Shown here: in pieces, positions 14,125 through 33,445 of the stretch
Position numbering within the stretch: the stretch's first letter is position 1
Layout: every line of letters begins with the position of its first letter
Assembly: GCA_013297775.1 (NCBI GenBank)
Contig: JAAFIL010000040.1
Location: 1 to 33,445, forward strand
Source of the DNA: Bacteroidota bacterium
Lineage (GTDB): Bacteria > Bacteroidota > Bacteroidia > B-17B0 > Aurantibacillaceae
Direction: 5' to 3'
Length of the DNA stretch: 33,445 nucleotides
Position numbers and translations under genes: made by a program
The notes under the pieces: generated by a model
The model's database searches: none
What the model saw: the letters and a program-made list of their open reading frames with translations, nothing else
Told to the model about the DNA's origin: nothing

Positions 14125-14242
14125 AGTTATCTCAGAGCAATTCTATGCAATTAGGTCGAAAAAATAATTCACAAGAGAGGTAGCCCATATAATGTGTTGT
14201 AAATTTATTGATACTAAGTTTTCTTCTAATTCCAAATAACTT

Positions 14243-14530
14243 AACTTATGGTAGTTTGTAACGGTAGTGATTTGTTCTAAAATCCTTTTTCAAAATTTAA
14301 TCTTCACCTCTGCGAACTTTGCGAACTCAGCGTGCTATTTTTAATGTAATCTATTATTTAATCGCGTTATAAGCCTTATTCTATATAACTTATAGTAGTT
14401 CGTAACGGTAATGATTTATTCTAAAATCCTTTTTCAAAATTTAATTTCCCTCTTTGCGAACTTTGCGAACTCTGCGTGCTATTTTTAATGTAATCTATTA
14501 TTTAATCGCGTTATAACTCTTGTTCTAAAG
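14243..14530. repeat. Two tandem copies (~144 bp period) of an intergenic repeat
   Basis: Unit 1 begins AACTTATGGTAGTTTGTAAC at 14243, unit 2 AACTTATAGTAGTTCGTAAC at 14387. Both continue with GATTTNTTCTAAAATCC, TTTTTCAAAATTTAAT, a run of TGCGAAC/TTTGCGAAC heptads, TGCTATTTTTAATGTAATC and TTTAATCGCGTTATAA. Related single or tandem copies lie at 17872-18010 and 21177-21567. There is no ORF. This repeat occupies most of the 578-base gap 14065-14642; the remainder is AT-rich with no clear feature besides the palindrome at 14109. Confidence 0.75.
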
Positions 14531-21176: not shown

Positions 21177-21567
21177 TATCAAAAGATTGGACTAAAATGT
21201 ATTTGTTTTCCATCTAACTTATTGAAGATTTGAAGTAATCAAATGTCTGGAAGAGAGTTATAACCTTTATTCTAAAGTTCTTCTTTCTTGAAATTCGATA
21301 TAAACCCTTTTCAAAATTTAATTTCCGCCTTTGCGAACTCTGCGCCTTTGCGTGCTATTTTTAATGCAGTCTATTATTTAATCGGGTTATAATCTTCATT
21401 CTAAAGTTCTTCTTTCTTGAAATTCGATATAAATCCTTTTCAAAATTTAATTTCCGCCTTTGCGAACTCTGCGCCTTTGCGTGCTATTTTTAGTGTAATC
21501 TATTATTTAATCGGGTTATAGATTTTATTCTAAAAAATTTCTTTTTTGAAATTACGGTTAAAGTATA
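21177..21567. repeat. Tandem intergenic repeats, 129-bp period
   Basis: After a lead-in shared with 17872 (ATCAAAAGATTGGACTAAAA), units start GTTATAA at 21257 and 21386, and a partial third at 21515. Each full unit carries TTTATTCTAAAGTTCTTCTT-like sequence, CTTTTCAAAATTTAATTTCC, GCCTTTGCGAACTCTGCGCC, TTTGCGTGCTATTTTTA and TCTATTATTTAATCGGG. The two full units are almost identical. Together with the terminator and the repeats at 20855 and 20968 they account for most of the 906-base gap 20715-21620; no gene is seen there. Confidence 0.8.
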
Positions 21568-24241: not shown

Positions 24242-24329
24242 GGAGAAATGGCAGAGTGGTCTAATGCGGCAGTCTTGAAAACTGTTGACTGTTACAGGTC
24301 CGGGGGTTCGAATCCCTCTTTCTCCGCCA
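24242..24329 (+). tRNA. tRNA-Ser (anticodon TGA)
   Basis: The acceptor stem GGAGAAA (24242-24248) pairs with TTTCTCC (24319-24325), followed by the discriminator G and an encoded CCA (24327-24329). The anticodon stem GCAGT/ACTGT encloses loop CTTGAAA, anticodon TGA, reading UCN serine codons. A long variable arm (class II) and the T loop GGTTCGAATCC are present. It sits at the border between core genes and the restriction/defence locus, and tRNA-Ser genes are frequent integration sites, but no second copy of the 3' end was found in the window. Confidence 0.97.
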
Positions 24330-24806: not shown

Positions 24807-24858
24807 GCAGAATCTTTTTATGCTTTTAAATAATGGCAAAAGAAATAAAACGTGGCAA

Positions 24859-24886
24859 TTGACCAAAAAAATTAGTATTATATTTG
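24859..24886 (+). promoter_or_regulatory. Promoter of the XRE/defence operon (TTG-N17-TATATTTG)
   Basis: TTG (24859-24861) and TATATTTG (24879-24886) are 17 bases apart, with predicted start near 24893 and a leader of about 23 bases to ATG 24916. Its 3' part overlaps the palindromic operator candidate at 24884-24900. Confidence 0.65.
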
Positions 24887-24900
24887 ACAAGTACCGTCAA
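24884..24900. promoter_or_regulatory. Palindromic operator candidate (TTGAC-N7-GTCAA)
   Basis: TTGAC and GTCAA form a perfect inverted repeat with AAGTACC between (GTAC at the centre). It covers the end of the -7 box and the predicted start point, directly before the XRE gene. This is where an autorepressing regulator of the controller-protein type would bind; binding is inferred. Confidence 0.5.
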
Positions 24901-24915
24901 GACAATTCTTTTACA

Positions 24916-25209
24916 ATGATTACACAGTTTGGTGAACGAATACGAGAACTAAGAATAGAACGGGGTTTACTGCTGAGGCAATTGGCCTCTAAATTAGATG
25001 TGGACACGTCAATTATCAGCAAAGTCGAAAGAGGCAATAGGCAATTAAAAAGAACGGAAATTCCTTTATTGGCCAAAATATTACAAATTGATAAACTAGA
25101 ATTAGAAACGCTTTGGCTCGCCGACCAAGTAATGCAATTAGTAAAAGATGAACCTACCGCAAACCAAGTACTAAAAACCAAATCAAAAAAAATTAAGCAA
25201 TTTCAATAA
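24916..25209 (+). CDS. XRE-family regulator (controller-like) of the restriction locus
   Basis: 97 aa from ATG 24916 (MITQFGERIREL). The HTH occupies about 5-60 (LRQLASKLDVDTSIISKVERG); the C-terminus is a short helical and basic tail (KTKSKKIKQFQ). The size and place at the head of a restriction locus resemble C (controller) proteins of restriction-modification systems, which time nuclease against methylase expression. The start is chosen because a good promoter and a palindrome lie just upstream; an in-frame ATG at 24820 would place both inside the gene. Its TAA overlaps the helicase ATG by one base (TAATG), giving tight coupling. Confidence 0.85.
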   Translation: MITQFGERIRELRIERGLLLRQLASKLDVDTSIISKVERGNRQLKRTEIPLLAKILQIDKLELETLWLADQVMQLVKDEPTANQVLKTKSKKIKQFQ

Positions 25210-28200
25210 TGTCAACAAAATTTTTTACAAACGAAAATGAAAATACGCTTTTAAGTAAAATTGAAGGCATATTCAAGTATCGAAATATTCATTTCTTTGA
25301 TGCTCTGGTAGGATATTTTAGAGCATCTGGTTACTTCCGCATTCGTCCTTTTGTTGAAAAGGCCAAGGAGATTAGAGTTTTAGTGGGAATTAATATTGAT
25401 AATCTAATTTACGAAGCGAATAAGAAAGGTTTACTTTTTATAGAAGACCCAGACAGATGCAGAGATGATTTTTTTGAGGAGATTAAAAAAAATATTCAAG
25501 AGGCAGAATATGATAAAGAGGTGGAAGATGGAATGTTGCAATTAATAAAAGATCTAGTTAACGAAAAAATTAGAATAAAAGTTCATCCCAAACAAAATTT
25601 ACATGCTAAAATTTATATTTTCAGAGAAGAGGAAAAACATAATCACGGCTACGGCTCCGTTATCACAGGCTCAAGCAATTTAACAGATAATGGTTTAGAA
25701 TTAAATTTTGAATTTAATGTAGAGTTGCGAGACAATACGGATATTGATTTTGCCAACGAAACGTTTAATAGACTATGGAGCGAAAGTATTGAAATAGGAA
25801 AAGAATTTGTTGATAAATTAAAAAAGGAAACCTACCTCAACGACGAATTTACACCCTTTGAAGTGTACATGAAATTCCTGATTGAATATTTCGGACGAAG
25901 TATAGACTTTGACCCTAATTCAATTCAAGATTTACCACAAGGGTTAAAAAAACTTTCTTATCAAGTAGATGCTGTTGCCGATGGATTTAATAAAATGATG
26001 AAGCATCATGGTTTCTTTTTATCAGATGTAGTTGGTTTGGGTAAAACAATAGTAGCAACACTTATTGCCAAAAAGTTTTTTTATACAAATGGTTTTCCTT
26101 CCTATTTATCAAAAACGCTTATTATTTGCCCACCTGCAATAAAAGAAAATTGGGAAGATACACTTTCAAAATTTGGGTTAAACAATTACAAAATAGTTAC
26201 TTCAGGTAGTTTGCATAAAATACAAAAGCATCACGATTATGATTTAATAATTGTAGATGAAGCTCACAAGTTTAGAAGTGATAGTGCTGAAATGTATTTC
26301 CATCTACAAAATATATGCAAGTCGCCAACACGTAAAAAATTAACCAACGATACCTACGAACAAAAAAGAGTCATGCTAATTTCGGCAACGCCGTTAAATA
26401 ATAAGCCCGAAGATATCGCAAACCTTGTTTACTTATTTCAAGATGCCAAAAACTCTTCTTTAGAAGTGGGTAATTTACAACACTTCTTTAGAGGACAGAT
26501 TGATGCCTACAAAAAGCTAAAAGCAGAATCGGATATAAAAAAAGTTACTGCTGGTGTAAAAGCTATTTACGAAAAAATAAGAGTAAAAGTAATAGAACCT
26601 TTAACGGTTCGCAGAACCAGAACCGACCTTTCCGAAAATGAGGAATACGCTAAAGACTTAAAAGAACAAGGCGTTATTTTTCCTGCGGTAAACAAGCCCG
26701 AAAAAATATTTTATCAATTAGATGAAAATTTAGATGCCATTTATGATAAAACCATTTTGTATTTAAGTGATCCAACTAAAGGACTAACCTACAATCGCTA
26801 TCAAGCTATTAAATATTTAAAGCAACATAAAAAGAATAAATACCAAAAGGCAGATTTGATTTCTGTTCAACTGGCTTTTATAATGAAAACCATGTTGGTA
26901 AAGCGTATAGACAGTAGTTTTTACGCATTTAAACAATCCTTGAGTCGTTTTTCGGTAGCCACCAACACAATGATAAAGATGTTTGAAAATGGTAGAATTT
27001 ATATTGCTCCTAACTTAGGTGTAAATGATTACATCAATGAAGGCCGAGAAGAAGAGTTAATAGCATTGCTAACCGATTTAGCCAGCACAGACCCAACCAT
27101 CGAAATTTGTGAGGTAGATGATTTTGAACCAGGCTTTATTACTGGCTTAAAAAATGATAAAGTTTTATTGGATGAATTGGTAAGAGAATGGGCAAACATA
27201 ACGCAAGACCCCAAACTGGATATTTTTAAAAACTATTTAGCAACCAAGCTATTCGATAAAACGATTAACAAAGAAGAAAAGTTAGTTATATTTTCCGAAT
27301 CAAAAGAAACAACAACTTATTTATATGAAGAATTAAAGAAAGCAAACTTTGATAAAATTTTAGTTGTAGATAGTAAAAATCGGAAAGATAAATTCCCTTT
27401 TGTAAAAGCCAACTTCGACGCCAACATTCCTTTAACAGAACAAAAAGACGATTATAATCTAGTTATTAGCACAGAGGTACTGGCAGAGGGTGTAAATATG
27501 CACCGTGCCAATATTATTGTAAATTACGATACCCCTTGGAACAGTACCAAATTGATGCAACGAATTGGTAGAGTTAACCGCATTGGTTCAAAAGCAAACA
27601 ACATATACATCTTCAATTTTTTTCCGACCACCAAAGTAAACAGCGATATAGAACTAGAGAAAAAAGCCATTATGAAACTACAGGCTTTTCATAGTGCAAT
27701 GGGCGAGGATAGCCAAATATACTCGCAAGACGAGGTTACCGAAAGTTTTGGTTTGTTTGATAAAACGGTAAGCGAAGAGAAAGATGAGAAGCTAAAGATA
27801 CTTTTAGAATTACGTAAATTCAAAAGAGATAATCCTGACCTATTTAAACAAATTAAAAATATGCCAACAAGGTCAAGGGTAGGGCGTAAAAGCCCAGTTT
27901 TGAAAGGAGCTACCATTACATTTATTCGTAACCAAAAACGAGATGCTTTTTTACTGATAAAAGAAAATGGAGAAATTGAAGAACTTACTTTTCTACAAGC
28001 GGAAAAAGAATATTTTGCAAAAGTTACCGAAAAATCAATACCACTTAATGAACAGCACCACACACAAGTTAAAAGCGCAGTTAATTTATTTGCTAACAAA
28101 TTAGAAGAAGAAAAAAGTAAAGAACGAAAAATTGATACCACACAAGGGCCTAACGAAAAAAGGGCTTTATCATTTTTAGATGCTTTAACCAACATTCAAA

Positions 28201-28478
28201 TTGCAAACTCAAAAGAAAAGGAAACACTACTAAATGCAAAGACTGCCATTCGATTAGGAAAGTTCCAGCACTTACAGCGTGATATAAATAAATTGGCTAA
28301 GGCTGTAAAAGCGTCTCCATTAAAGCCAGCTATACTTTTAGAAGAAACAATGAAAATTTTAAATAAATATCCTCTACAAACAATTGAAGATGACGGAGCG
28401 CAAACTATGCAGCCCGTTTTTAACATCAAAGAATTTAAACCCGAAATTATAATCAGCGAAAGCTTTGATAATTATTAA
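25209..28478 (+). CDS. PLD-nuclease/SNF2-type helicase fusion (restriction subunit)
   Basis: 1089 aa. The N-terminal phospholipase D-like nuclease domain (about 15-200) has the H-x-K pair (His132, Lys134) and GSSN (154-157). A superfamily 2 SNF2/RapA-like motor follows: GLGKT Walker A (276-280), DEAH (350-353), SAT in ISATPLNNKP, and the second RecA domain (about 690-830) ending in motif VI QRIGRVNRIG (784-793). The last ~250 residues are helical and unassigned. PLD folds act as nucleases in restriction enzymes such as BfiI and NgoAVII/CglI; in the latter, PLD nuclease and helicase are separate proteins. Here they are fused, so this is the probable ATP-dependent restriction enzyme, paired with the methyltransferase at 30267. 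A DISARM assignment is not supported because the other genes are absent. Confidence 0.88.
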   Translation: MSTKFFTNENENTLLSKIEGIFKYRNIHFFDALVGYFRASGYFRIRPFVEKAKEIRVLVGINIDNLIYEANKKGLLFIEDPDRCRDDFFEEIKKNIQEAEYDKEVEDGMLQLIKDLVNEKIRIKVHPKQNLHAKIYIFREEEKHNHGYGSVITGSSNLTDNGLELNFEFNVELRDNTDIDFANETFNRLWSESIEIGKEFVDKLKKETYLNDEFTPFEVYMKFLIEYFGRSIDFDPNSIQDLPQGLKKLSYQVDAVADGFNKMMKHHGFFLSDVVGLGKTIVATLIAKKFFYTNGFPSYLSKTLIICPPAIKENWEDTLSKFGLNNYKIVTSGSLHKIQKHHDYDLIIVDEAHKFRSDSAEMYFHLQNICKSPTRKKLTNDTYEQKRVMLISATPLNNKPEDIANLVYLFQDAKNSSLEVGNLQHFFRGQIDAYKKLKAESDIKKVTAGVKAIYEKIRVKVIEPLTVRRTRTDLSENEEYAKDLKEQGVIFPAVNKPEKIFYQLDENLDAIYDKTILYLSDPTKGLTYNRYQAIKYLKQHKKNKYQKADLISVQLAFIMKTMLVKRIDSSFYAFKQSLSRFSVATNTMIKMFENGRIYIAPNLGVNDYINEGREEELIALLTDLASTDPTIEICEVDDFEPGFITGLKNDKVLLDELVREWANITQDPKLDIFKNYLATKLFDKTINKEEKLVIFSESKETTTYLYEELKKANFDKILVVDSKNRKDKFPFVKANFDANIPLTEQKDDYNLVISTEVLAEGVNMHRANIIVNYDTPWNSTKLMQRIGRVNRIGSKANNIYIFNFFPTTKVNSDIELEKKAIMKLQAFHSAMGEDSQIYSQDEVTESFGLFDKTVSEEKDEKLKILLELRKFKRDNPDLFKQIKNMPTRSRVGRKSPVLKGATITFIRNQKRDAFLLIKENGEIEELTFLQAEKEYFAKVTEKSIPLNEQHHTQVKSAVNLFANKLEEEKSKERKIDTTQGPNEKRALSFLDALTNIQIANSKEKETLLNAKTAIRLGKFQHLQRDINKLAKAVKASPLKPAILLEETMKILNKYPLQTIEDDGAQTMQPVFNIKEFKPEIIISESFDNY

Positions 28479-28500
28479 TGGTTAATCGTAAATTATCAAT
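28471..28500 (+). repeat. AT-rich junction repeat, left of first four-helix-bundle gene
   Basis: ATTATTAATGGTTAATCGTA continuing AATTATCAAT. It contains the helicase stop codon. It is the reverse-complement type of the repeat at 28851-28880, so the gene between them is bounded by an inverted pair. Confidence 0.65.
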
Positions 28501-28503
28501 GAA

Positions 28504-28863
28504 ATGAAAGAGAATGTAATTAAAAATAAAAGTTTTGAGTTTGCAATTAGAATTGTGAAGCTGTATCAATTTTTAATTTCAGAGAAAAAGGAATTTGTAT
28601 TGAGTAAGCAACTTTTAAGAAGTGGAACAAGTGTTGGTGCAATGGTGAGAGAAGCCGAGCATAGCGAAAGCAAAGCTGACTTTATACATAAACTTGCAAT
28701 AGCTCAAAAAGAAATGAATGAAACTATCTATTGGTTGGAGCTACTTAACGCAACAGACTATTTAACACAAAAGGAATTTGAAAGTATTAATACTGATGCA
28801 ACTGCAATCATTAAATTAATTACATCAATAATTAAAGCAACAAAATCAAACATTAACAATTAA
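28504..28863 (+). CDS. Four-helix-bundle protein (bS23/IVS type), copy 1
   Basis: 119 aa. The pattern (KNKSFEFAIRIVKLY, QLLRSGTSVGAMVREAEHSES, FIHKLAIAQKEMNETIYWLELL) is that of the 'four helix bundle protein' family. Members are encoded in intervening sequences of 23S rRNA genes and are structurally related to Avd of diversity-generating retroelements; they form pentamers and bind nucleic acid. The job in this locus is unknown. It is about 80% identical to the product at 29882 (23 differences in 119 by hand count). It begins 25 bases after the helicase stop and ends inside the repeat at 28851. Confidence 0.88.
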   Translation: MKENVIKNKSFEFAIRIVKLYQFLISEKKEFVLSKQLLRSGTSVGAMVREAEHSESKADFIHKLAIAQKEMNETIYWLELLNATDYLTQKEFESINTDATAIIKLITSIIKATKSNINN

Positions 28864-28880
28864 TAATTAACCATTGATAG
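28851..28880 (-). repeat. AT-rich junction repeat, right of first four-helix-bundle gene
   Basis: CATTAACAATTAATAATTAA followed by CCATTGATAG. It supplies the last codons and stop of the four-helix gene and the TTG start region of the YhcG gene. Confidence 0.65.
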
Positions 28881-29863
28881 TTAAAAAGGAACTCATACAG
28901 CAAATACAATCCATCATTACCACGGCAAAAGATAGAGCAATCCGTTCAGTTGACAACGAAAGGGTGCTGATGTATTGGCAAATAGGTAAAGTAATATTTG
29001 AAGAAGAGCAACAAGGCAAAGACAGAGCAGCGTATGGAAAATATCTAATCAAATCTATTTCCGAAACCTTTCAGCCTCAATTTGGAACTGGGTTCTCTAT
29101 TCGTCAATTAGAACGTAATCGCCAGTTTTATCGAACATTCCCAATTGCGACTGCACTGCGGACGCAATTCAGTTGGACACATTATAAAACTCTTATAAGC
29201 ATTGATAATCAGGATAAAAGAGAATTTTACATAGCCGAAGCCAGCAAAAACAATTGGAATGCAAGGCAATTAGAACGCCAAGTAAACAGCCAGTTGTTTG
29301 AACGCCTTTTATTAAGTAATGATGTACAAAGTGTATTGGCAGTAGCCCGAGAAGAAAAACTACCTACCGATGCCAAAGAAATTATTAAAGACCCAATGGT
29401 ATTGGAGTTTTTGGGGCTAAAAAGAGAGGCCGCCTATTATGAAAAAGATTTGGAAGCCGCCATCATTACCCACTTACAAGATTTTATATTAGAGTTGGGC
29501 AATGGCTTTGCTTTTGTAGCAAGGCAAAAACGTATATACATTGATGGCGATGAGTTTTTCACAGACCTTGTATTCTTTAACCGATTATTACAATGCTTTG
29601 TAATCATCGAAATAAAAACCACCAAGCTCACCCATCAAGACATTGGGCAATTGCAGATGTATGTAAACTATTACGACCGCTACGAAAAGCAGGAATTTGA
29701 AAACCCAACCATTGGTATTTTATTATGTACCGATAAAAACGATGCAGTTGTAAAAATTACTTTGCCCGAAAACAATAATACCATTGTAGCCAGTAAATAC
29801 CAATTATATTTGCCTACCGAGCAGCAATTGATAGAAGAAGTGAAAATAATTATTAATGGTTAA
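28874..29863 (+). CDS. DUF1016/YhcG-family PD-(D/E)XK nuclease
   Basis: 329 aa. The N-terminal DUF1016 region (about 1-160: VDNERVLMYWQIGKVIFEEE, TGFSIRQLERNRQFY, FSWTHYKTLI, EFYIAEASKNNWNARQLERQ) is followed by a PD-(D/E)XK nuclease domain with Asp231 (FFTDLVFF), Glu246-Ile-Lys248 and a QLQMYVNYYD helix. Active-site residues are intact. YhcG-type proteins are common in defence islands and beside restriction genes, with unclear role. The start is TTG at 28874, within repeat DNA; the next in-frame Met is at residue 33 and would cut into the conserved domain. The last residues (IIING) and the stop also come from repeat DNA. Confidence 0.9.
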   Translation: MIVKKELIQQIQSIITTAKDRAIRSVDNERVLMYWQIGKVIFEEEQQGKDRAAYGKYLIKSISETFQPQFGTGFSIRQLERNRQFYRTFPIATALRTQFSWTHYKTLISIDNQDKREFYIAEASKNNWNARQLERQVNSQLFERLLLSNDVQSVLAVAREEKLPTDAKEIIKDPMVLEFLGLKREAAYYEKDLEAAIITHLQDFILELGNGFAFVARQKRIYIDGDEFFTDLVFFNRLLQCFVIIEIKTTKLTHQDIGQLQMYVNYYDRYEKQEFENPTIGILLCTDKNDAVVKITLPENNNTIVASKYQLYLPTEQQLIEEVKIIING

Positions 29864-29880
29864 TTGTAAATGATTAATTA
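29849..29880 (+). repeat. AT-rich junction repeat, left of second four-helix-bundle gene
   Basis: ATTATTAATGGTTAATTGTA followed by AATGATTAATTA, nearly the same as 28471-28500. It holds the YhcG stop codon. Confidence 0.65.
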
Positions 29881-29881
29881 A

Positions 29882-30241
29882 ATGAAAGACAATGGAATAA
29901 AAAATAAGAGTTTTGATTTTGCAATAGGAGTTGTAGAACGATACCCATTTTTAGGTAATGATAAAAAGGAGTTTGTATTAAGTAAGCAACTTTTAAGAAG
30001 TGGAACAAGTGTTGGTGCATTGTTTAGGGAAGCCGAACATAGCGAGAGCAAAGCTGATTTTATTCATAAGTTGGCAATTGCCCAAAAAGAAATAAACGAA
30101 ACTATCTATTGGTTGGATCTACTAAATGCAACACACTTTTTAACACAAAAGGAATTTGATAGTATTCATACGGATGCAATTACAATCATTAAATTAATTA
30201 CATTGATAATAAAAACAACCAAATCGAACATTAACAATTAA
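29882..30241 (+). CDS. Four-helix-bundle protein (bS23/IVS type), copy 2
   Basis: 119 aa paralogue of the protein at 28504, same length, about 80% identical; the central QLLRSGTSVGA and EAEHSESKADFIHKLAIAQK segments are identical, while residues 15-27 vary most. The DNA is also strongly conserved, so the two genes are direct repeats of ~360 bp that flank the YhcG gene. It starts 18 bases after the YhcG stop and ends in the repeat at 30229. Function is unknown; see copy 1 for the family. Confidence 0.88.
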   Translation: MKDNGIKNKSFDFAIGVVERYPFLGNDKKEFVLSKQLLRSGTSVGALFREAEHSESKADFIHKLAIAQKEINETIYWLDLLNATHFLTQKEFDSIHTDAITIIKLITLIIKTTKSNINN

Positions 30242-30263
30242 TAATTTACAATTAACAATTATA
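30229..30263 (-). repeat. AT-rich junction repeat, right of second four-helix-bundle gene
   Basis: CATTAACAATTAATAATTTA followed by CAATTAACAATTATA, the inverted counterpart of 29849-29880. It ends 3 bases before the GTG start of the methyltransferase gene. Confidence 0.65.
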
Positions 30264-30266
30264 AAA

Positions 30267-33200
30267 GTGGATTTTAACACATTACGATATAATCTTCAAC
30301 TGCCCTACCAACGTAACAATTGGAAGGAATGGTTACTGCAATTATTTGGGCAACAAATAAGCATTGAAACGTTAGCCGAAAAAATTATCGTTCAAAAGGG
30401 TAATGCTAAATCAATAGAACGCTTTGCATCTATTACTTTGAGCGATGATAAAAATATTGCGGTGTTAGATATTAAAACCAACGCCGATATTCAAATTGCA
30501 CGAAACAGAGTTGCATTAAGAGATATTGCGTTCAACCTCATTGACCAAGATAAATACCACGGTCTGTTGGTCTTTTATCACAGTGAGGATGACACACAGT
30601 TAGACTATCGTTTATCGTTTATCAGCAGACAAACTACCATTGATGAAGATGGTAATTTTATTCAGCAAAGTACCAATGCCAAGCGGTACTCTTTTATTTT
30701 AGGAGTCAATGAAAGCTGCACCACCGCTACTTTACGCTTATTAGAATTAAAAAGTAAAGTACCTTCATTCAAAGCTTTTGAAATACAAAAGGGTATAAGT
30801 TTAAAAGACTTAACCGATACGTTTTCGGTGGAGGCTTTAAACAATGAGTTTTTCAAAAAGTATAAAGATATTCATTACAAACGGTTTTGGGAATACATTG
30901 CCAACAAACCCGAATACGCCACATTACTCTTAAATACCGAAGAAACAGAGTTAACCAAACAACAAAAACCTATTCGCGATTTTGTAAAGAAAATGTTGGG
31001 GCGAATTGTGTTCCTACATTTTTTGCAAAAGAAGGGTTGGATGGGTGTTCCATTTGTAAATGATAAATTGTTAATGGGTAATGAAAGAAGCAATTGGAAT
31101 GGAGGCGATAAACATTTTATGCAAAACTTATTTGCCCGTTTTCCACAACAAGAAAATTTTTACAGCCAATGCCTCACCGTTCTCTTCTTCCAAACCCTAA
31201 ATACCGACCGAAGAAAACAAAATGATATAGCACCAAAACAATTAACAATTAACCATTTACAATTAACCATTAAGATCCCTTTTTTAAACGGTGGTTTATT
31301 CGATGATGAATTGCCTCAAACCAATGCCTTTGATTTTCCGATAGATTATTTTAAAGATCTGTTTGATTTTTTTAGCCAATACAATTTTACCATTGATGAA
31401 AATAGCCCGGAGGAACAAGAGGTTGGTATTGACCCCGAAATGTTAGGGCATATTTTTGAAAACTTGTTGGAAGAAAATAAAGACAAAGGTGCATTTTATA
31501 CTCCAAAGGAAATTGTACATTATATGTGTCAGGAAAGCTTGATACAGTACCTGCTTACTCAGTTGTTAATGGTTAATGATAAATTATTAATGACAGAACA
31601 GGAGCGAGAGCAATTAACAACTAACCATTTACCATTAACAATTATTTCTGCCATCGAAACCTTTATTCGTAAAGACGATATTGGCAGCCGCACCGATAAA
31701 AAGAATTTTATAGTAGCCAATGCCAAACGCATTGAAGCCATTTTGGATAAAGTCAAAATTTGCGACCCTGCCATAGGATCCGGTGCTTTCCCGATGGGGA
31801 TGTTACAAGAAATTTTTAAAGCCAAAACTACACTCGACCTTACCTTGGATAAAGCCCAAGTAAAAAAAGACATTATCCGTAATAACATTTATGGGGTAGA
31901 TTTGGAAAAAGGTGCTGTGGACATAGCCCGTTTGCGCTTTTGGTTAAGTTTGGTAGTAGATGAAGAGGAGCCACAACCTTTGCCAAACTTGGATTATAAA
32001 ATTATGCAAGGCAATAGTTTACTAGAAAGTTTTGAGGAAATTGATTTAAGTAATTTATTGGATTATGAAACTGACGAGCCTATTATTTATGCAGAGAAAG
32101 AGCAAATAAAACTATTTGAAGAGGAACAACAATCCTTACTAATTTTTGATAAGGTTACTAAGGATGAATTGCAGGCACTAATAAGCTTATATTTTGACTT
32201 TGAAGAACATACCAATGTAACTAAATTTAAAACCAAGCAGGCAGTAAAACAAGCTATTAATAAGATAATAGAAGGCAAATTAAAAGCACACTTTTATTTA
32301 CAAAAGATTAAAATAGAGTCCGTGAAAGACGAAGTGGAACTAAGTATAACGGCTAACGCCATAAAGCCAACCGACTCTAAAGGTGTAGCCGATAAAAAAA
32401 CAAAAAACCTTATACTACTTACTAAAAAATTAAAAGCTTTTGATGATAAAATAAACCACCTAACCGAACTATTAAACAAACTAAACAAATGGGAAACAGA
32501 AGATAAAGAACGCCCTTACTTTTTATGGCATACTTATTTTAAAGATGTATTTGATAAGGGTGGCTTTGATATTGTAATTGGTAATCCGCCGTATTTAGAT
32601 TACAGACTTATTGACAAATCTGTAACTCACAATGAAAAATTTAAAAATACAAATAGTAATTCTCAAAGACCAAATTTATATTTATATTTTATTGATCATT
32701 CAGACCAAATAATTAGATCGAATGGTATTTTAACATTCATTAATCCTAACCAGTTTTTATCTACAGATTCAGGCTTAGGTATTAGAAAACATTTAGTTGA
32801 TGAAAGAACTTTAATTTCTTTTGATGATGTTTCTTATGTTGATGTTTTTAAAGAAGCAGCAACCTACACTACTGTATTTTTTTACAAGAAAATCAAGAGT
32901 AGTAAAGGAGCTTTAATAAAAATAAATAGATGTAAGGACTTAGCTAAACTCGGAGAAGCAAGTTTTTATTTATTTCAAAATGATATTAAAAACGACTCTA
33001 AAAAAATGATTTCGATAAGTGGTGAGAATAGTATTATTAAGAAAATAGAAGGTTTTGGTTTTGCAACTTTAAAAGAAATTAGTAAGATGCTATGGGGAAC
33101 ATCTGCAACAGGTTATGGAAAAAAGAAGATAAAGTTGGAAAATTATAATAATTTAAAAAGTGAAGTTAAATCTAAATATGAGCCTATCATTCAAACAGCA

Positions 33201-33347
33201 GATATAAAAAGTCATTATATACTTTGGAAACAAGAATATATCCCCAAGGATATTTTTTCAAAAAATGTAACCTTAGAATTTATAAAAGAAAAAATAGTAA
33301 TAGGACGACTTACAAAAAAAATCACTACTAACCGACTAATTTTTTAA
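30267..33347 (+). CDS. Eco57I-type DNA adenine-N6 methyltransferase with short specificity region
   Basis: 1026 aa from a GTG start. The N-terminal domain (about 1-230) contains IAVLDIKTN (64-72). The methylase core has GAFYTP (408-413), SAM motif I DPAIGSGAF (500-508) and catalytic NPPY (774-777 region, N at 773), the gamma-class order, with a long helical insert between them (about 590-740). From ~860 on is a TaqI-like target-recognition region, which seems short: it ends about where the second half of this domain normally starts. Three stretches (264-272, 325-336, 432-460) are translated copies of the AT-rich repeat seen between genes. It methylates adenine in a specific site and so protects host DNA from the PLD-helicase; Eco57I relatives may also cut. 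The TRD part is visibly more AT-rich than the core. Confidence 0.87.
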   Translation: MDFNTLRYNLQLPYQRNNWKEWLLQLFGQQISIETLAEKIIVQKGNAKSIERFASITLSDDKNIAVLDIKTNADIQIARNRVALRDIAFNLIDQDKYHGLLVFYHSEDDTQLDYRLSFISRQTTIDEDGNFIQQSTNAKRYSFILGVNESCTTATLRLLELKSKVPSFKAFEIQKGISLKDLTDTFSVEALNNEFFKKYKDIHYKRFWEYIANKPEYATLLLNTEETELTKQQKPIRDFVKKMLGRIVFLHFLQKKGWMGVPFVNDKLLMGNERSNWNGGDKHFMQNLFARFPQQENFYSQCLTVLFFQTLNTDRRKQNDIAPKQLTINHLQLTIKIPFLNGGLFDDELPQTNAFDFPIDYFKDLFDFFSQYNFTIDENSPEEQEVGIDPEMLGHIFENLLEENKDKGAFYTPKEIVHYMCQESLIQYLLTQLLMVNDKLLMTEQEREQLTTNHLPLTIISAIETFIRKDDIGSRTDKKNFIVANAKRIEAILDKVKICDPAIGSGAFPMGMLQEIFKAKTTLDLTLDKAQVKKDIIRNNIYGVDLEKGAVDIARLRFWLSLVVDEEEPQPLPNLDYKIMQGNSLLESFEEIDLSNLLDYETDEPIIYAEKEQIKLFEEEQQSLLIFDKVTKDELQALISLYFDFEEHTNVTKFKTKQAVKQAINKIIEGKLKAHFYLQKIKIESVKDEVELSITANAIKPTDSKGVADKKTKNLILLTKKLKAFDDKINHLTELLNKLNKWETEDKERPYFLWHTYFKDVFDKGGFDIVIGNPPYLDYRLIDKSVTHNEKFKNTNSNSQRPNLYLYFIDHSDQIIRSNGILTFINPNQFLSTDSGLGIRKHLVDERTLISFDDVSYVDVFKEAATYTTVFFYKKIKSSKGALIKINRCKDLAKLGEASFYLFQNDIKNDSKKMISISGENSIIKKIEGFGFATLKEISKMLWGTSATGYGKKKIKLENYNNLKSEVKSKYEPIIQTADIKSHYILWKQEYIPKDIFSKNVTLEFIKEKIVIGRLTKKITTNRLIF
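31056..31082 (-). repeat. In-frame AT-rich repeat 1 in the methyltransferase gene
   Basis: GTAAATGATAAATTGTTAAT followed by GGGTAAT, read as VNDKLLMGN (residues 264-272). Same sequence type as the intergenic junction repeats; VNDKLLM is repeated at 31573-31593. Confidence 0.55.
31239..31274 (+). repeat. In-frame AT-rich repeat 2 in the methyltransferase gene
   Basis: CAATTAACAATTAACCATTT followed by ACAATTAACCATTAAG, translated QLTINHLQLTIK (residues 325-336). Confidence 0.65.
31560..31646. repeat. In-frame inverted pair of AT-rich repeats in the methyltransferase gene
   Basis: The left arm (TTGTTAATGGTTAATGATAA, 31563-31582) and the right arm (AACCATTTACCATTAACAAT, about 31623-31642) are inverse copies about 40 bases apart, translated as residues 432-460 (LLMVNDKLLM ... 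QLTTNHLPLTI). The frame stays open across both arms. Confidence 0.65.
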
Positions 33348-33349
33348 TT

Positions 33350-33377
33350 AAAAGGGTAACTGATGTTACCCTTTTTT
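33350..33377 (+). terminator. Intrinsic terminator of the defence operon
   Basis: AAAGGGTAAC (33351-33360) pairs with GTTACCCTTT (33365-33374) around TGAT, followed by more T. It begins 4 bases after the methyltransferase stop. Confidence 0.88.
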
Positions 33378-33384
33378 AATAATG

Positions 33385-33392
33385 TAAATTTG
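33385..33392 (+). promoter_or_regulatory. -7 box (TAAATTTG) for the gene running off the window
   Basis: TAAATTTG matches TAnnTTTG and predicts a start near 33399, 20 bases before ATG 33419. Confidence 0.55.
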
Positions 33393-33418
33393 TGTTTACT
33401 AAGACATAAAAAAACATT

Positions 33419-33445
33419 ATGAGTAAAAATACAGAAATAAAATTA
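33419..33445 (+). CDS. Start of a further gene, cut by the window end
   Basis: ATG followed by codons for SKNTEIKL, open to the last base. It has its own promoter after the terminator of the defence operon. Nine residues are too few for a family call; the opening is reminiscent of BRO-family/antirepressor-like proteins often found in Bacteroidota restriction loci, which is a guess only. Confidence 0.5.

Follow-up and report, generated by a model that had tools for sequence, protein, structure and literature searches.

Tandem arrays of seven-nucleotide units recur in bacterial genomes, and the cyanobacterial short tandemly repeated repetitive (STRR) sequences are one class of such heptamer repeats. 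Others are GGGAATC in Xanthomonas and GGGGATT in Nostoc (PMC4692102), and TAACTGA, which is arrayed 5' of start codons in Beggiatoaceae, occurs also in Cyanobacteria and Bacteroidetes, and was reported with no evident mechanism of spread (PMC4679880). Proteins of the S23 family (PF05635) are described from intervening sequences (IVSs) of 23S rRNA, where the open reading frame (ORF) lies within complementary ends, as in the Coxiella IVS with its 28-bp stem (PMC4990558). The REPIN/RAYT systems are described as pairing a gene with its own repeat family, with inverted doublets, extragenic copies and different repeat groups for different genes (PMC3116915). Here we analyze contig JAAFIL010000040.1 of a Bacteroidota bacterium, a stretch of 33,445 nucleotides referred to as the window, which is the entire contig and carries two bS23-type genes in a defence-type operon running from position 24820 onward. 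A first-pass annotation had described both genes as flanked by inverted AT-rich repeats and had proposed that a unit 'repeat - gene - inverted repeat' moves as a cassette. We confirm this unit, and we lean, somewhat better than evenly, toward a reading in which each bS23 gene forms, together with its pair of inverted arrays, one DNA-level unit, a 'heptad-armed bS23 element', whose protein helps the arrays spread.

The inverted repeats flanking both genes are real. The two copies, a and b, align over 28468-28888 and 29846-30267 with 360 of 420 positions identical (86%), and similarity drops abruptly outside. Because the edges of this homology coincide with the outer edges of the arms, a 'repeat - gene - inverted repeat' unit of ~420 nt is supported. 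What had been called AT-rich repeats can be described more precisely as tandem arrays whose 7-nt unit is of the type TTAATGG, TTAATTG or TAAATGG (period 7 in Tandem Repeats Finder, TRF), four more of which lie within the methyltransferase ORF. A 19-nt core pattern has 12 matches in the window (at most 3 mismatches) against 0.35 expected, a number reached in none of 100 shuffles. The arrays in the methyltransferase ORF are free of bS23 and in frame, and they add residues absent from most of 13 aligned homologues, in regions of variable length. Unlike insertion sequences and miniature inverted-repeat transposable elements, neither window copy shows a target-site duplication at its outer ends when inspected by eye.

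The association of heptad arms with bS23 genes is general. Our set of 239 distinct PF05635 genes spans several phyla and consists of 81 close relatives (79 homologues and the two window genes), 42 paralogues in their genomes, 57 from among the best-scoring members in a phylum sample, 16 plasmid genes, 29 genes from Gammaproteobacteria and 14 from five metagenome-assembled genomes (MAGs), after removal of eight duplicates or genes with an identical 3' core (L255/L086, the L268 pair, L180/L179, L421, L423, L425, L429 and L433). Sampling gave 58 scored bS23 genes from 60 regions (46 at a stricter cut), some with misplaced starts; 16 of 25 plasmid records were used, and 57 of 274 gammaproteobacterial genomes had a match, with 29 loci scored. 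In a motif-free test, the 120 nt 5' of the start codon were compared with the 120 nt 3' of the stop codon, and arms with z above 4 were called complementary. Complementary arms were found in 166 of the 239 genes, and in 192 one or both arms contain a period-7 array; both signals were present in 145 and either signal in 213, so that copies without flanks, which the first-pass annotation had named as a sign against a cassette, are largely missing. The same test shifted outward (n = 229) gave 6 complementary, 26 period-7, 2 both and 30 either. With duplicates kept, the counts become 227/247 for either signal and 152/247 for both, against 29/237 and 3/237 in the controls, and random shuffles shift such counts by a few genes between runs (close relatives with either signal, 81/81 versus 78/81). 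Neighbouring genes of the same loci have complementary arms in only 19 of 572 cases, and random positions in 1 of 105.

Among periods 4 to 12, seven fits best in 143 of the 158 left arms with a clear period. Array length varies, with five units (83 of 310 arrays) and four units (77 of 310) being the commonest. A strict heptad scoring of the 79 homologous loci, which excluded arrays overlapping the start codon and was followed by reading the flanks by eye, placed arrays on the left in 41, on the right in 65 and on both sides in 38, over a background of 0.13 per kb. At some of these loci, the first array 3' of the stop codon has the + orientation, and the inverted array follows farther on. The unit itself changes with the gene lineage. 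It is TTAATGG in the window; TTAGTGG, GTATTGA, AGCTATG and GTACTAT at other loci of the phylum; AATTCGT, AATTCGC, GAAGTCG and GGTCACT on cyanobacterial plasmids; and GGGAATA, CCAAGGG and AGTTCTG in Gammaproteobacteria. A search with the pattern TWAATKD, which gave arrays in 1 of 46 genes from among the best-scoring Pfam members, had pointed to arrays limited to one bS23 subfamily, an idea dropped since the motif-free test showed other units in other lineages. Stop codons are enriched in the arms 1.31- to 1.55-fold over shuffles on either strand (duplicates included). Stops in all frames were considered as a universal function of the arms and rejected, as three frames are covered in only 80 of 153 left arms; such coverage is a trait of some units, TTAATGG among them. 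As a separate observation, CRISPR-associated genes surround bS23 genes with period-7 flanks on plasmids of Anabaena and Pseudanabaena (L404 and L416).

The two arms of an element fit each other. Complementarity between own left and right arms sums to 8065, versus a permuted mean of 4191 (sd 91, maximum 4556, 2000 permutations, n = 238, z ~42), and the own right arm ranks within the top 5% of partners for 155 of 238 elements. L062 was left out of these permutations on account of its very long arms; with L062 included, the 81 close relatives give 3010 versus a permuted mean of 2390 (maximum 2676). Arm similarity also correlates with protein identity (Spearman 0.57 versus a maximum of 0.11 in 300 permutations, n = 172, proteins under 90 residues excluded). 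The median arm score is 32-39 for cross-genome pairs at 60-80% protein identity and 17-19 for same-genome paralogues below 50%, with a background of 16. Arms match their own partner, and how alike they are depends on protein lineage rather than on host genome; arms and gene are thus inherited as one unit, in line with the unit first proposed from the window.

An ORF between complementary ends is also the layout of rRNA intervening sequences, Coxiella included (PMC4990558), and the arms could in principle act at the RNA level. They would then pair in the operon transcript into an IVS-like stem on which RNase III or bS23 acts, and the element would be a module for mRNA processing or regulation. 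Gene orientation is compatible with this: both neighbours lie within 600 nt at 73 of the 79 homologous loci, where bS23 is co-directional with both in 53 and opposite to both in 1, and in close relatives the left arm is C-poor and the right arm G-poor. A bias toward the sense orientation is also expected from selection against harmful insertions or from dependence on host transcription. Arm mismatches speak against the stem, with 236 that preserve G-U pairing versus 255 mirror-image transitions (p = 0.42; 60 versus 65 elements; 251 versus 273 with duplicates). Wobble pairs are thus not favoured, which argues against a selected RNA stem, and no Rfam family was found at the elements in nine sources. 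We therefore consider an RNA-level role unlikely, and the analogy with rRNA intervening sequences drawn in the first-pass annotation extends to the layout alone, as no RNA stem is indicated by the wobble test. There are further differences from rRNA intervening sequences. Units of the window type lie between or within protein genes, with no rRNA match in nine sources including the window; their arms are 7-nt tandem arrays that vary with lineage; and some genomes hold gene-free repeats elsewhere.

Our data support the presence of cognate repeat families alongside bS23 genes in the genomes tested. In 8 of 296 genomes of the phylum, the window's own included, TTAATKR matches outnumber those to the reversed pattern by 9 or more (a threshold set after viewing the table). 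A close relative of the window bS23 is present in 6 of these 8 genomes, versus 42 of the 296 overall (hypergeometric p 1.3e-4), G011 and G016 being the two that lack one. An excess of arrays is seen in G162, G170 and G160. A bS23 gene lies in only 1 of 20 sampled array regions of TTAATKR-rich genomes, and by eye several arrays sit directly at gene ends. In a cross-over test, two units derived from arms were searched in 12 gammaproteobacterial genomes. GGGARTA arrays were found only in G464 (40 overlapping matches) and G635 (75 matches in many places), and CCAAGGG arrays in G543 (256 overlapping matches), with 1 match in G553; it is in G464, G635 and G543 that bS23 arms are built of these units. 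Cognate arrays are dispersed in G635 and G543, not in G464 nor in the window's genome. In the latter, gene and arrays keep to one island: its only two PF05635 genes are the flanked pair of the window, and of the 13 listed three-unit matches, from a count of 14 against 5 for the reversed pattern, 12 fall within this island. Arrays elsewhere in some genomes give weight to the comparison with TnpA-REP systems made at the outset. The likeness has bounds: bS23 is no tyrosine (Y1/HUH) transposase and forms a helical bundle with no known catalytic function, and its repeats are direct tandem 7-mers (TTAATGG, AATTCGT, CCAAGGG), not short palindromes as in REPIN/RAYT. Separately, the reversed control pattern of this test matched in G472 alone, a genome with four PF05635 genes, and its 49 matches there hint at another dispersed heptamer family (GGGATRA type).

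Presence and absence of the element were followed at one Flavobacterium locus across 61 genomes, 25 of which have a cobU-like gene together with its upstream neighbour (names assigned by eye from sequence; of 26 loci, L320 was omitted as its upstream gene was not found). The bS23 unit occupies 6 of these 25 junctions, once with a broken frame, and is absent from 19. Arms are visible by eye in all 6 gene-bearing junctions, so orthologous sites with the gene and no repeats, the other observation named beforehand as adverse to a cassette, were not seen at the one locus examined. Six of the 19 empty junctions measure just 21-40 nt, and several others show, by eye, a remnant arm or gene-free arrays built from other units. 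Another intergenic repeat (GCGTTAGGGATA-like) is present at this junction in several Flavobacterium species (L298, L303 and L308).

Copying within a genome is seen in G298. Here two bS23 genes separated by 1.7 kb agree at 428 of 444 positions over a stretch that starts 5 nt 5' of the start codon and runs through the right array, and their left flanks are unrelated. The pair thus arose by recent copying inside this genome, although the copy does not comprise the whole unit. At the MAG locus L015, a bS23 unit is preceded by a distantly related helicase (41% identity) and followed by a methyltransferase. Farther on, at another place in the operon, L015 contains an arm-YhcG-bS23 stretch that aligns with window positions 28852-30166; its first part (28852-29846) is 84% identical at the DNA level (831/994), and the aligned block starts at an arm edge. 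The notion of a mobile cassette is strongly supported as to the unit and gains one recent copy in G298; no target-site duplication was seen.

The position of the elements raises the question of a role in defence. From 24820, the operon comprises an HTH regulator, a DrmD-like PLD+SNF2 helicase, bS23 gene a, a YhcG/DUF1016 nuclease, bS23 gene b and an Eco57I/DrmMI-type methyltransferase (Table 1). The order helicase (DrmD-like or SNF2-type), bS23, methyltransferase recurs at L015 and, in other phyla, on Planktothrix (L409) and Chlorohelix (L411) plasmids, and a Dolichospermum plasmid (L403) has one extra gene before the methyltransferase. Such recurrence, the purifying selection on bS23 described below, and the reported frequency of PF05635 near diversity-generating retroelements with immunity genes (PMC10053308) would suit a functional accessory of defence operons whose arms serve as promoter and terminator or as autoregulatory sites. 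That view is very improbable in our estimation. All 13 other operons homologous to the helicase-methyltransferase operon of the window lack bS23 (2 of them cut by contig ends), no PADLOC model matches bS23 at E 0.001, and junctions unrelated to defence are occupied as well, namely DUF5522-like/cobU (names by eye) and gmk/nadD in F. columnare (PMC5524665).

Table 1 Features of the two heptad-armed bS23 units and their surroundings in the window.
Feature	Position	Strand	Description
Left arm, element a	28468..28502	+	Tandem 7-nt array, 5 units, TTAATGG type; overlaps helicase stop codon
bS23-like gene a	28504..28863	+	119 aa, PF05635 / TIGR02436; AlphaFold model pLDDT 92, best PDB match 2rld
Right arm, element a	28843..28884	-	Inverted 7-nt array, overlaps 3' end of gene a; homology with copy b stops at 28888
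Left arm, element b	29846..29880	+	7-nt array, 5 units; overlaps 3' end of YhcG gene
bS23-like gene b	29882..30241	+	119 aa, 81% identical to gene a; dN 0.10, dS 0.56
Right arm, element b	30221..30262	-	Inverted array ending immediately 5' of methyltransferase start (30267)
Gene-free array in methyltransferase ORF	31057..31084	+	TTAATGG-type 7-nt unit
Inverted array in methyltransferase ORF	31239..31273	-	Translated TINHLQLTI; extra residues versus most of 13 aligned homologues
In-frame hairpin, left half, methyltransferase ORF	31559..31593	+	Loop 17 nt; region of variable length
In-frame hairpin, right half, methyltransferase ORF	31611..31645	-	Pairs with 31559..31593
PLD + SNF2 helicase (DrmD-like), host operon	25209..28478	+	Gene 5' of element a
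YhcG/DUF1016 PDDEXK nuclease, host operon or cargo	28874..29863	+	Between elements a and b
Eco57I/DrmMI-type DNA methyltransferase, host operon	30267..33347	+	3' of element b

The defence island has a G+C content of 0.32-0.34, versus 0.35-0.40 upstream. tRNA genes are usual integration sites, and one lies at 24242-24326, shortly 5' of this AT-richer island (24820-33445), whose right end is beyond the contig. Elsewhere in the window, TRF detects two intergenic tandem arrays (14242-14527 and 21257-21553) with units of ~144 and ~129 nt that share stretches such as CTTTGCGAACTC; the two are probably one family of long intergenic repeats.

Both window proteins belong to PF05635 (96.6 and 84.1 bits versus a cut-off of 33.8) and TIGR02436 (105.3 and 91.9 bits versus 24), a family widespread in the phylum sample, where 232 of 296 genomes have a PF05635 match. 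The AlphaFold model is a confident four-helix bundle (pLDDT as in Table 1), whose closest structures are 2rld and 2gsc (Xcc0516 from Xanthomonas), each with five chains. Purifying selection is evident in 8 of 12 gene pairs (dN/dS 0.05-0.18), three of the others being saturated and one having a dN of 0. The fold also resembles Avd of diversity-generating retroelements: Avd structures 4dwl and 8ub7 match the bS23 model with a Foldseek probability of 0.97-1.00 and a TM score of 0.66-0.76 by query length, at 14-17% identity and E-values of merely 0.09-0.5. Unlike in a diversity-generating retroelement, no reverse transcriptase is found among the six proteins scanned from the island, which is cut by the contig end.

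These properties suggest how a heptad-armed bS23 element might work. A bS23 protein, having five-chain relatives, would bind its own array with one subunit per 7-nt unit; the reading of five units by a pentamer is suggested by four and five units being the commonest array lengths. The bound protein would help arrays be copied or annealed into new sites through host replication and recombination, in a mode akin to that of RAYT for REPs, except that the protein would have no nuclease of its own. Insertions would persist mainly when they lie at gene ends and follow the direction of transcription; TTAATGG-like arrays, with stops in every frame, would do little harm there. In the window, a helicase-methyltransferase defence operon would have received two units with YhcG between them, and its methyltransferase gene would have gained shorter arrays, free of bS23 and in frame. 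It is plausible that bS23 itself drives this movement.

Several observations weigh against the protein-assisted spread of such elements. Neither arm signal is detected in 26 of the 239 PF05635 genes. No nuclease, transposase or other catalytic family or fold was recognised in bS23, only families of the PF05635/TIGR02436 type and folds of the bS23/Avd type. The window's own genome shows no spread of gene or arrays beyond the island, and all 40 array matches of G464 lie on a single contig near its bS23 gene. In 398 kb of G543 picked around known arrays, we counted 29 arrays, mostly single, with 18 inside ORFs by crude ORF calls; only 4 inverted pairs occur, the bS23 element among them, and all 4 are oriented like that element. 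At the Flavobacterium junction, the divergence of bS23 and cobU is roughly parallel, which fits an old element with losses. The recent G298 copy is incomplete, as it has no left arm (z 0.9 in the arm test) and only the other gene of the pair has one, and no recent insertion was found with a target-site duplication or with an exact empty site. Finally, G011 and G016 have 65 and 83 TTAATKR matches (controls 1 and 0) and 6 and 7 PF05635 genes, none closely related to the window bS23.

Arrays of the latter kind, and the variable array length, would be expected if the arrays were passive. Slippage could grow 7-nt arrays, polymerase slippage having been proposed as the cause of heptamer over-representation in bacteria (PMC4692102); bS23 would be an ordinary horizontally moving gene, and inversion or gene conversion would keep adjacent arrays alike. 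We judge such hitch-hiking decidedly unlikely, for it leaves unexplained why bS23 has arms that its control neighbours mostly lack, why arms in different genomes resemble one another in step with the protein lineage, and the result of the cross-over test. An element whose own protein helps its arrays spread remains our slightly preferred account.

A wider proposal can be made tentatively, and we rate it below an even chance. bS23 proteins would be ring pentamers that read five 7-nt units, each lineage with its own, and that build and spread arrays; the unexplained heptamers of bacteria (GGGAATC in Xanthomonas, GGGGATT in Nostoc, TAACTGA in Beggiatoaceae and the cyanobacterial STRRs) would be their footprints, and the rRNA intervening sequences their most visible special case. 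Those heptamers resemble the arms in being 7-nt tandem arrays near gene ends, and differ in that the bS23 arrays are tied to a gene. Xanthomonas, the host of GGGAATC repeats, is also the source of structure 2gsc. The terms S23 and four helix have no match in the main texts of PMC4692102 and PMC4679880, and among the matches listed in open-access literature we found no report linking bS23 or four-helix-bundle genes to heptamer repeats.

If the wider proposal is true, GGGAATC arrays should flank, or once have flanked, XCC0516, the Xanthomonas gene of 2gsc. The heptamer repeat class would gain a genetic cause, in the form of a repeat-spreading system with no recognisable transposase. If each bS23 gene owns a 7-nt family, nature would provide many protein-repeat pairs for testing recognition and spread. 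Two old puzzles, the role of the widespread and multi-copy bS23/IVS proteins and the origin of bacterial heptamer repeats, may thus have one answer.

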